From Ignavibacteria bacterium (lineage in GTDB: Bacteria; Bacteroidota; Ignavibacteria; Tepidaquicellales; Tepidaquicellaceae): a stretch of 64,000 nucleotides of DNA. Where the stretch lies: NCBI GenBank assembly GCA_019187405.1, contig JABAQZ010000013.1:1-64000 (forward strand), given 5' to 3'. Shown piece after piece: positions 46,541-50,191 of this stretch. A program made the translations under genes and the position numbers. Position 1 is the first letter of the stretch. Each line of letters starts with the position of its first letter. The notes under the pieces are model-generated. The model ran no database searches and was not told the DNA's origin. It worked only from the letters and a program-made list of their open reading frames with translations.

Positions 46541-47848
46541 TTGAAAAATATAATTTACATACTAATTATAGTTTTCTCTGTTTCAACCAGCATCGATACA
46601 TTTGCGCAGGATTACTGGATTGAGCAATCAAGTCCGACGACAAAATATTTAAGAAGCGTTTTTTTTACTGATACATTAAACGGATGGATTAGCGGAGATT
46701 CCGGATTAATCATACACACTTCTAATAAAGGCATTACATGGACAATTCAGCCGACCGGATTAAACAGGGAAGTAATTTCTCTTTTCTTTTTAAATGCGGA
46801 TACGGGATTTGCACTGTCGTGGGAGTTTAGCGCCGTTCCGCCGAATTATTTTGGAACGAGAATACTTTCAACTATTAACCGAGGAGTAAGCTGGAACAAT
46901 TATTTATTTCCCGATACAAATTTATTTCTTAACACAATTTATTTTCATGACAGATATAACGGTTTCATGGGAGGATCTGAAGGAAAAATTTTTTATACTA
47001 CCAACTCGGGAATAAACTGGCATAGGGCAAGCGTTGATTCATCTGCATTTTTCAGTTTCCCTGTTAAAAAAATAAAATTCGCCGACGAGCATACAGGTTA
47101 TGCGGCCGGAGGCGCTTTTGACATTGCAGGAATGATGTGGAAGACTACAAATGGCGGACTTAACTGGAGATCTGTTATAGTCGGACCAGAGCCGATGAAT
47201 GACTTATATATTTTTGACAGAGATAACATATTTTGTGCTGGCGGAGATTTTGAATACGGACCGAGCAGACTCATCACAACAAACGGCGGCACAAACTGGA
47301 ATTATACGGAATTCGGAATATTCGGGATTGGCAATTCGATAGATTTCAGGACATACAATGAAGGCTGGATTTCACTTGGTATCATCGACACATTTCTCTT
47401 AACGACTGATCATGGAATCAGCTGGAATACCGTTTCATCACCGGACAATTCCCGCATATATGATTTGCAGTTCATTGACCAGCGTAATGGATGGGCAGTC
47501 GGCAACGAAGGCGTGATATTAAAATACAATTCAAGCATTATCGGCGTATCAGAATATGAAGCCGGCATACCGGAAAAATTTATTTTACATCAGAATTATC
47601 CTAATCCATTTAATCCTAAGACAATAATCAGTTATCAATTATCAGTTAATAGTTTTGTAAAATTAATTATTTATAATGTTTTGGGAAAAGAAGTTGCAAC
47701 TCTGGTAAATGAAATGCAGTCTGCAACAAGCGGAGAGAGAATGTATCAGGTTGAGTTTGACGGAAGCGAATTGCCCAGCGGAGTGTATTTCTACAGACTA
47801 TCAACAGATAAAATTACGACAACAAAAAAAATGGTTTTGATAGAGTAA
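46541..47848 (+). CDS. T9SS-exported YCF48-like beta-propeller protein
   Basis: 435 residues with a signal peptide ending FAQ. About six to seven propeller blades carry the pattern G-W-x-S/V-G-x-x-G-x-I-x-x-T-x-x-G-x-x-W, such as NGWISGDSGLIIHTSNKGITW and NGFMGGSEGKIFYTTNSGINW, typical of YCF48/sortilin-like repeats. A sorting tail starts HQNYPNPFNPKT and ends TKKMVLIE. The start is TTG at 46541. It converges with another T9SS propeller gene across the repeat region. Confidence 0.85.
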   Translation: MKNIIYILIIVFSVSTSIDTFAQDYWIEQSSPTTKYLRSVFFTDTLNGWISGDSGLIIHTSNKGITWTIQPTGLNREVISLFFLNADTGFALSWEFSAVPPNYFGTRILSTINRGVSWNNYLFPDTNLFLNTIYFHDRYNGFMGGSEGKIFYTTNSGINWHRASVDSSAFFSFPVKKIKFADEHTGYAAGGAFDIAGMMWKTTNGGLNWRSVIVGPEPMNDLYIFDRDNIFCAGGDFEYGPSRLITTNGGTNWNYTEFGIFGIGNSIDFRTYNEGWISLGIIDTFLLTTDHGISWNTVSSPDNSRIYDLQFIDQRNGWAVGNEGVILKYNSSIIGVSEYEAGIPEKFILHQNYPNPFNPKTIISYQLSVNSFVKLIIYNVLGKEVATLVNEMQSATSGERMYQVEFDGSELPSGVYFYRLSTDKITTTKKMVLIE

Positions 47849-48595
47849 CACACAATTTCATTTAACGTTAATACTCTTTCTGCACCCCACCTCCGGACCT
47901 TCCCCATGCCGGGGAAGGGTGATGTGCAAGAAAAAAAAATCCGTGAAATCCTTTAATCAGTGTAATCCGTGATTCAGACATCTTTCAAAACCGTGATTTT
48001 TGTAACGAATAGGGAGTGACGTAACGAGGGACAAAAGTGCTTCTGTGCACCACATCCCCGGCCCATCACCATGCCGGGGAAGGGAGATGTGCAAGAAAAA
48101 AAAATCCGTGAAATCCTTTAATCAGTGCAATACGTGATTCAGACATCTTTCAAAACCGTGATTTTTGTAACGAATAGGGAGTGACGTAACGAGGGACAAA
48201 AGTGCTTCTGTGCACCCCACCCTCAGCCCTTCCCCATGCCGGGGAAGGGAGATGTGCAAGAAAAAAAAATCCGTGAAATCCTTTAATCAGTGTAATCCGT
48301 GATTCAGACATCTTTCAAAACCGTGATTTTTGTAACGAATAGGGAGAGACGTAACGAAGGACAAAAGTGCTTCTGTGCACCCCATCCCCGGACCTTCCCC
48401 ATTCTGGGGAAGGGAGATGTGCAAGAAAAAAAATCCGTGAAATCCTTTAATCAGTGTAATCCGTGATTCAGACATCATTCAGAAACGTGATTCTTGACGT
48501 TACGGATCAGGAAAATTTATTACGAGAGAAAAAAAGAGTTTTCTTTCAGGTTTTTAATATTTCATTATTCAATTCTTTTAAACCCTCAAGTGTCC
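47849..48595. other. Intergenic region of 747 bases filled by a tandem repeat
   Basis: Between two convergent T9SS genes. 47881-48496 is the 165-bp repeat array, listed separately. The flanks (47849-47880 and 48497-48595) hold no gene or terminator that I can support. Open frames running through the array lie in the repeat and are not considered genes. Confidence 0.7.
47881..48496. repeat. Tandem 165-bp repeat, three full copies and one partial
   Basis: Copies begin at 47881, 48046, 48211 and 48376, exactly 165 bases apart; the fourth fades after about 48496. Each copy holds, in order, a GC-rich dyad (CCTTCCCC, five bases, GGGGAAGG), a run of eight or nine A, an AATC-rich stretch with about 9-base spacing, and a tail ending GGGACAAAAGTGCTTCTG. 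Copies differ at a handful of positions. In copy 4 the loop is changed but the dyad arms are kept; in copy 2 the left arm is broken. No target-site duplications or transposase are seen. Confidence 0.9.
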
Positions 48596-50191
48596 TTATT
48601 TCAAATATACCATTCTCTTTACTTCGCTGTAACCGTCTGATTTCATTTTGTAAAAATAAATTCCCGAAGACAAACCTCTTGCATCAAACGAATATTCGTA
48701 ACTGCCGGGACTCATGACCTGATTTACAAGTTCTGCAACTTCCCTGCCTGCGGCATCAAAAATTACCAATGAAATATTTCCTGTTTGCGGAACATTGAAT
48801 TTTATCTTTGTCGAAGGATTAAACGGATTCGGAAAATTCTGATAAAGCATGTAATGTTCAGGAATTTCAAAACTTGTCTGACTTATACCAACTTCATCAA
48901 TATTTATAGAAGCAGTCCAAACCTGATATATACCAGTATGGTCGTCCATCCAGACAGGCCAGAGTTTATTGTTTGCGTTTGTAATACCAATGTTATCTCC
49001 CTGATTACCGGAACCTGCTCCTGATATACTTTTAGGAAGGAACTTATGATCGCTGATAAGATAATCATGCCAATTATCACCTCCGTTTACCGACCTTGAA
49101 AGATAAATCTGAGCTGAATCAGGGCTGTTTCGCTGGTCGAAATAAATTACATTGATTCCGCCGGATGAATCAACAGTTACTGCGGGAAAAACCTGAATCT
49201 TTCCGTTATTGATCGGATCCTGATTTACTCTTACACCGGCTGACCATGTGCTTCCTCCGTCAGTAGATTTGTGAAACACAATGTCAGGATCTGTACCTGC
49301 AGGCGCAAGATTTTTTTCCGTAGTAAGAATGTATATCCAGCCGTTTCTCGGACCGCCTGTTTTATCAATATCCATTGACGGATAACCGTTTACCCGTATA
49401 TTCCATGGCGCAAGCGAAGAAGATTTTATTCCATTACAGTCATAGGCGCATTCAGTAATGCTCCAGTTTAATCCGCCGTTTGACGAAACGGCAAATCCAA
49501 TGCAGTCCTCGTTAAACGGCGAAACCAAAATGGCAGAAGCCCAGCTGACGTATGATTTGCCGTCAGGACCTATTGCCATTATGGGACCAACAGACTGTCT
49601 TGAAGGAAGAGAATTGTTAACTTGTATTAAACCAGACCAGTTGGCTCCGGAATTAGTTGTATAAGAAGTAACTATCGGAAACGGACTTGTAAATCTCGTC
49701 CAGACAAGAAACGTTCTTCCGTAATAAGGACTTGCAGGAATAACATTTGTTGCCGGACTGCCTTTGTCCTGATCATCACCTGCGATCTGAACATTATTTG
49801 ACCAAGTTTGACCCATGTTTGTGGAACTATTTGAATACATTCCAATGATAAATCCGCCCTGATGAGTTAATATCAGATTGCCGTCTTTATCAATTACAGG
49901 ACCGGGATCTCCTCCGTGATTTGTAATCGGATTTCCAAAAAGTGTATCTGTACCGTACCAGTTTAAACCTCCGTTTGTAGTCAGATAAACACCTTCGCTT
50001 CTGAACGAAGTCCTGATTGTAAAAGAGCTTGCAAACATAATATCCGGGTTTGTCGGATGAACAACAATATTCGGCTCAATCTGATTGTTTGTGGACGGGT
50101 GAATCCTGAAATTAGGAAACTGCGCATATAATTTTTCAAAAGATGCACAACTTAAAACTATAATTGGTATAATAAAATTGAGAATTTTCAT
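48596..50191 (-). CDS. T9SS-exported BNR/sialidase-like beta-propeller protein
   Basis: 531 residues with a signal peptide ending LYAQ. The propeller has several Asp-box turns (S/T-x-D/N-x-G-x-T-W), for example STDGGSTWSAG, SVNGGDNWHDY and TTNGGLNWYG. The catalytic residues of true sialidases were not identified, so only the fold is claimed. The sorting tail starts YQNFPNPFNPST and ends VKRMVYLK. The dyad and promoter at 50207-50294 lie directly upstream. Confidence 0.85.
   Translation of the reverse strand: MKILNFIIPIIVLSCASFEKLYAQFPNFRIHPSTNNQIEPNIVVHPTNPDIMFASSFTIRTSFRSEGVYLTTNGGLNWYGTDTLFGNPITNHGGDPGPVIDKDGNLILTHQGGFIIGMYSNSSTNMGQTWSNNVQIAGDDQDKGSPATNVIPASPYYGRTFLVWTRFTSPFPIVTSYTTNSGANWSGLIQVNNSLPSRQSVGPIMAIGPDGKSYVSWASAILVSPFNEDCIGFAVSSNGGLNWSITECAYDCNGIKSSSLAPWNIRVNGYPSMDIDKTGGPRNGWIYILTTEKNLAPAGTDPDIVFHKSTDGGSTWSAGVRVNQDPINNGKIQVFPAVTVDSSGGINVIYFDQRNSPDSAQIYLSRSVNGGDNWHDYLISDHKFLPKSISGAGSGNQGDNIGITNANNKLWPVWMDDHTGIYQVWTASINIDEVGISQTSFEIPEHYMLYQNFPNPFNPSTKIKFNVPQTGNISLVIFDAAGREVAELVNQVMSPGSYEYSFDARGLSSGIYFYKMKSDGYSEVKRMVYLK

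Follow-up and report, generated by a model that had tools for sequence, protein, structure and literature searches.

The window, that is, the whole analysed stretch of 64,000 nucleotides, contains between two convergent genes a tandem array of period 165 in 3.7 copies (93% matches), whose TRF score of 1078 greatly exceeds that of every other array in the 64 kb (Table 1). The original prediction had described an exact 165-base tandem repeat between two convergent T9SS genes, and both parts of this description are confirmed, with each flanking gene ending in a T9SS type A sorting domain (TIGR04183, PF18962). Three full copies and one partial copy with scattered substitutions are likewise seen in the copy alignment, beginning at the four dyad positions listed in Table 1, with the correction that the A run of the partial copy 4 is shorter by one A, which introduces a 1-bp register slip inside the unit. 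Copies 1-3 are strictly in register and differ pairwise at 7-10 of 165 positions (94-96% alike); these differences are concentrated in the GC dyad (unit positions 7-40), the arm and the remainder being nearly invariant. When copy 4 is compared with units at other places in the genome, its homology extends to about position 48509 (GACGTTACGGATC). The unit combines at least three modules in mosaic fashion, namely the GC dyad, a 43-bp arm and a GTAACG module, and the widespread element is the arm alone. The arm terminates in ATTCAGACA; parsed into words on the minus strand, it reads TGTCTGAAT and then CACGGAT, CACTGAT, AAAGGAT and CACGGAT in steps of 8-9 bp. The arms of the window occur in a single orientation only.

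Table 1. Features of the array and its flanking genes in the window
Feature	Coordinates	Strand	Basis
Ycf48/BNR-like protein gene, T9SS type A sorting domain, 3' end toward array	46541..47848	+	profile matches
Tandem array of 165-bp composite unit, 3.7 copies	47881..48496		TRF, copy alignment
GC-rich dyad module, copy 1 (again at 48046, 48211, 48376)	47881..47930		fold
Arm, copy 1	47939..47980	-	word parse, family matches
Third (GTAACG) module, copy 1, GTGATTTTTGTAACG...GACGTAACGAGGGACAAAAGTG	47981..48045	+	pattern matches elsewhere in genome
Arm, copy 2, one CACGGAT word mutated	48104..48145	-	copy alignment, word parse
Arm, copy 3	48269..48310	-	copy alignment, word parse
Arm, copy 4 (partial unit)	48433..48474	-	copy alignment, word parse
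BNR-like protein gene, T9SS type A sorting domain, 3' end toward array	48596..50191	-	profile matches

Nothing within the array has a coding appearance, and the original view of it as a recent, non-coding expansion with accidental reading frames is upheld. A local function between the convergent genes, as a bidirectional terminator, an mRNA 3' stabiliser or a small RNA, would be in keeping with the convergent position, with the folding of the GC dyad in all four copies (about -21 to -24 kcal/mol, copies 2 and 4 via alternative stems) and with the avoidance of coding sequence by arms in general. It is nevertheless improbable, as the array holds no intrinsic terminator-like site in either direction and no Rfam match above the gathering score, the arm alone gives no fold in the computation, and the other clusters of the genome occupy non-convergent gene contexts. 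Elements elsewhere also have no Rfam match at the gathering score, the search returning one ordinary tRNA. A CRISPR array was rejected, in agreement with the original prediction, since the spacers inside each cluster are repeated too rather than differing from one another.

The earlier concern that the unit might occur nowhere else does not hold, as a search of its own genome, a 38-contig draft of 98% completeness, returns 60 matches. Arm ends number 63 in eight clusters by pattern search, against 0 for a reversed control pattern; both numbers were obtained with pattern and BLAST searches. Each cluster has its own tandem period or spacer (about 74-75, 89-90, 127 or 165 bp, or irregular), so that the length of 165 is itself without meaning, and the spacers are unrelated between the eight loci. 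In several clusters the first arm is oppositely oriented, as read by word parse. Contig C7 is the only other place in the genome with the exact GC dyad pattern, a diverged match being present at C15, and the core of the third module also adjoins arms at C1:52 kb and C1:79 kb. One T9SS gene 3' end is present in three copies, each lying a few bases ahead of a cluster, namely C18 (L009), C27 (L012) and C7 (L016), which looks like segmental duplication.

Two simpler accounts of the array can be weighed against this dispersal. The first, that intergenic DNA simply duplicated in tandem without any underlying element, is favoured by the close and strictly in-register likeness of copies 1-3 and by the absence of the array 3' of relatives' orthologues of the downstream gene (67-73% identical; readable 3' flanks only). 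The presence of the core at eight genome loci with unrelated spacers, and in many phyla, makes this account very improbable as a whole: it is refuted for the core and stands solely for how the 165-bp unit multiplied here. Among the relatives' orthologues no clean empty site for the window locus was found, because these orthologues have other neighbours. That the array or its copy number is an artefact of draft assembly is suggested by the 38 contigs and by the fact that repeats are where short-read assembly fails, but the array copies bear private substitutions, independent clusters exist in the genome and the family is present in genomes of cultured isolates, so that an artefact is very improbable.

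The wider search proposed with the original prediction finds the arm in many phyla in addition to the eight clusters. The arm signature, ATCCGTG-N(0-30)-AATCCGTGATTCAGACA (24 bases), is present in at least 119 stretches, which among the matches listed belong to Bacteroidota, Ignavibacteria, Kapabacteria, Desulfobacterota, Poribacteria and Spirochaetes as well as Patescibacteria, Phycisphaerales, Gammaproteobacteria, Chloroflexota and Marinimicrobia; cultured isolates bearing it include Hydrotalea flava, Ginsengibacter hankyongi and Botryobacter ruber. Within the phylum, an exact 17-mer of the arm occurs in 10 of 395 genomes. Arms form at least 42 inverted pairs, at least 34 of which are shorter than 200 bp, mostly 76-141 bp, and the four pairs that were folded as single-stranded DNA give hairpin z values of -5.6 to -9.6 relative to shuffles. 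At the arm pairs no target-site duplication is found, flank matches being equal to those of random pairing, and a DDE-type MITE was rejected because the fixed-length target-site duplication is missing. A phage origin was also rejected, since the signature is absent from viral contigs (IMG/VR) and relatives of the linked protein described below are found neither in viral contigs (two queries) nor in phage records. In a Desulfamplus MAG (L101, L104, L131), arm pairs are nested within a larger repeated hairpin (GATTCTAACTTCG ... GTTAGAATC).

In other genomes, arms border a small GxxExxY gene (PF13366 PDDEXK_3, TIGR04256) of the PD-(D/E)XK nuclease superfamily, usually in inverted orientation, an assignment on which Pfam and NCBIfam concur (127 bits against a cut-off of 22 and 133.6 bits against 35). 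The original statement that no transposase is present is correct locally but does not extend to the element family, which is tied elsewhere to this nuclease gene. Among the matches listed in the at least 119 stretches (830 kb), profile search and tblastn detect whole or broken GxxExxY genes at 16 loci, every one of them no more than 151 bp from an arm. Because presence of an arm was the basis on which the stretches were selected, the appropriate comparison is with randomly placed positions in them, of which 24% fall within 150 bp of an arm. The whole arm-linked genes among the matches listed all belong to one clade (LGNGFQEVIYQRAL), and their proteins are 75-94% identical across phyla (e.g., Bacteroidota, a spirochaete, Contendobacter and a Chloroflexi genome), which indicates horizontal transfer. 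Two loci (L194 and L169) hold only GxxExxY fragments, between or beside arms, and these appear to be internal-deletion relics of the kind expected for deletion derivatives. Across 395 genomes, six of the ten genomes with an arm also contain the close GxxExxY clade (11 holders in total; P=1.8e-8 at an identity limit of at least 67% that was picked after the list was seen), and co-occurrence with all matches at E 1e-30 gives P=2.4e-4. The catalytic E, D, ExK and Q residues are conserved in the alignment (E31, D72, E82, K84, Q96), so that the predicted nuclease has its catalytic residues intact; no activity is known to have been demonstrated for the family. A PDB profile search returned only weak, irrelevant hits and no solved relative, and an AlphaFold model built with 11 close sequences was discarded (pLDDT 40) and kept out of fold searches. 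The array is accordingly more than a local oddity, its core being a dispersed, trans-phylum element with a cognate gene family.

GxxExxY genes occur in 60 of 118 sampled genomes of the phylum. The source genome has a single one, which belongs to another clade and carries CGCAGAT-type repeats on one side; a clade-matched gene is absent from this genome, and the word parse of its clusters reveals no GxxExxY relic in the arrays. The core of the array corresponds to one end of a repeat that elsewhere brackets the gene, so that the array looks like a locally multiplied, gene-less remnant of a mobile family. With the cognate gene absent, the most plausible reading is that of an orphan whose copies arose through the host's recombination, the nuclease not being needed for the present amplification.

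The pairing of gene and repeat extends beyond the clade linked to this arm. For 30 genes sampled by family only, the flanks are inverted repeats of each other (median alignment score 35.5 versus 17, p=1.5e-14). The repeat words vary by gene (CACAGAG, CACAAAG, CGCAAAG, CACTAAG, CACGGAT, CGCTGAT and others), all fit the consensus CRCNRAKNN, and they are spaced by 8-10 bp with a mode of 9. Two tandem CRCNRAK words, inverted and on both flanks, are present at 56 of 154 GxxExxY genes compared with 0 of 208 control sites, the consensus being partly derived from the same genes; 62 of the 154 have no two-word motif on either side. Genes of a control family, PF05635 (four-helix-bundle), have no CRCNRAK words in any of 29 cases. 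Six plasmid loci held out from the derivation (Persicobacter, Treponema, Gemmatirosa, Fusobacteria, Bernardetia and Sphingomonas) all fail the strict regex, although on inspection by eye each of them has repeats of period 9-10 next to the gene. Furthermore, repeat type tracks protein clade, with 10 label changes on the tree against 40.6 for shuffled labels (minimum 34): the FQEVIYQR clade pairs with TGTCTGAA arms (26 of 28 labelled), the FLEKVYE clade with CRCNRAT (12 of 13) and the GLLES clade with CRCNRAG (53 of 64). The pairing of GxxExxY genes with these repeats is strongly supported. On two plasmids, pZRK30-1 (Fusobacteria, L361) and pTS1 (Treponema, L359), the gene is flanked by AATCCGTG-type repeats, which adds two further phyla. 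A search of open-access papers found no description of the pairing; GxxExxY is named there in unrelated papers only, and the repeat words appear in no paper on the subject.

The positions of arms relative to genes are far from random. An open frame of at least 100 codons enters 16 of 203 left ends, compared with about 40% at random sites (frames summed), and 15 of these 16 frames use the single frame in which the arm provides GTC TGA, the last codon and the stop. At least 11 distinct histidine-kinase genes, two of them with a confirmed HATPase_c domain, all end at the TGTCTGA boundary of the arm, typically as ...FIIQLPV-V-stop. At four loci (L090, L113, L118, L417) the far side restarts with a second, sometimes decayed, kinase end from YDIVKAHGGE, and at L420 a shorter kinase-end relic lies beyond the arm element. 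This duplication accompanies gene-bearing elements as well as a gene-less one of 91 bp (L090), and it could be either a long duplication or a replacement end borne by the element. Elements also lie at the start of a type I restriction specificity gene, a second site seen at L123:7282-7881 (minus strand; Methylase_S) and, by sequence similarity, at L126, where the element lying directly before the gene may supply its GTG start codon (MIQTGYKQTEVG).

Homing endonuclease elements of fungal mitochondria restore the 3' end of their target gene. The kinase 3' ends resemble this arrangement in that insertion recurs at a conserved site, where a small predicted nuclease gene is present and the gene 3' end appears duplicated. 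The arm elements differ from homing elements in that only some copies lie at such sites and an ORF-less copy occupies the same site, and cleavage of the site is putative.

In their working, the arm elements are most similar to REP sequences and REPINs with their RAYT enzymes (Nunvar 2010, PMC2817692; REPINs, PMC3116915), in which an enzyme gene lies between two inverted repeat copies, enzyme and repeat co-evolve and orphan copies occur. The arm elements are likewise small, dispersed and mostly intergenic, with hairpin-forming inverted pairs, and have a cognate gene that is flanked by inverted copies, co-occurs and co-evolves with the repeat and leaves orphan copies. They are not filed under REPIN/RAYT because the defining enzyme differs: the RAYT is a Y1 HUH transposase (PF01797), whereas the linked enzyme here is of the PD-(D/E)XK superfamily, and no Y1 gene was found near arms at the six Y1 loci and in the arm stretches covered below. 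Further differences from REP are that arms consist of tandem period-9 words rather than one palindrome, that near-identical copies occur in different phyla, and that arms can grow into long tandem arrays. One could still suppose REP/BIME-type elements moved by a RAYT, with GxxExxY genes as passengers that landed between arms, a supposition that draws on the REPIN-like character of hairpin-forming pairs without target duplication and on seven Y1_Tnp matches in the source genome. This is unlikely, since the six Y1 loci fetched from that genome have no arm within about 1.5 kb, repeat type follows GxxExxY clade and the relics inside arm pairs are GxxExxY relics; moreover, none of the 119 arm stretches listed matches the genome's three Y1 queries, a weak test given Y1 diversity.

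The evidence as a whole is best read as a system that resembles REPIN/RAYT but uses an unrelated nuclease, with the window array as an orphan arm that was tandemly amplified along with its neighbouring modules. Probably, then, the array is a gene-less fragment, amplified on the spot, of elements that are dispersed and that in their complete form consist of an inverted period-9 arm, a GxxExxY gene and a second arm. In such a system, the PD-(D/E)XK protein would recognise its own arms and promote their spread, either by homing-like cutting and repair or by acting on the hairpin; its action on the arms or on target DNA would lead to repair that copies the element. Gene-less pairs may be mobilised in trans, and arms would persist where harm is least, between genes and at gene 3' ends. 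In the source genome, the cognate gene would have been lost first, and unequal recombination or slippage would then have multiplied the arm together with its neighbouring modules. No insertion event was observed. Least certain of all is that the nuclease mobilises the element, as linkage and co-phylogeny would equally arise from a passenger gene of independently mobile repeats. A broader proposal is put forward tentatively and may well prove too general: GxxExxY proteins might be the movers of undescribed, very widespread small prokaryotic elements with period-9 arms particular to each clade (CACAGAGAA, CGCAAAGGA, CACGGATTA types and others), which would spread between phyla, in some cases home to fixed sites such as histidine-kinase 3' ends and restore the gene end, and leave gene-less copies that explain many intergenic repeats of environmental genomes, this array included.

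Uncultivated bacteria repeatedly show, between their genes, short unexplained repeats of the AATCCGTG, CACAGAG and CGCAAAG types, and GxxExxY proteins are named by motif alone. Linking the two gives one testable system, in which each clade offers a nuclease with a predicted cognate repeat (TGTCTGAATCACGGATTA arms for clade A). If the proposal is true, a further enzyme superfamily joins the spreaders of REP-like repeats, and caution is called for before such repeats are read as regulatory elements or small RNAs.

Two other known systems share some of these features. The selfish intervening sequences of 23S rRNA, about 0.4-0.6 kb and carrying an S23p/four-helix-bundle ORF (PF05635; Coxiella IVS, PMC4990558), are alike in size and in having one small ORF inside terminal inverted repeats; they differ in protein family, in their repeats (period about 7-8 with PF05635 in this phylum) and in location, the arm elements not lying in rRNA. 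The TAACTGA intergenic direct repeats of Beggiatoaceae, Cyanobacteria and Bacteroidetes, for which horizontal transfer by a mechanism not known is suspected (PMC4679880), also consist of short tandem words with a patchy cross-phylum distribution. They differ from the arm repeats in being a heptamer of other sequence, and no cognate gene is known to have been proposed for them. PF05635 genes (L364-L392) are bracketed by short inverted tandem repeats particular to them, with a period of about 7-8 (AGTAGTCAGTAGCCAGT, TTAGTGGTTAGTCCTCAGT and others), perhaps a second gene-repeat pairing related to the published TAACTGA repeats.
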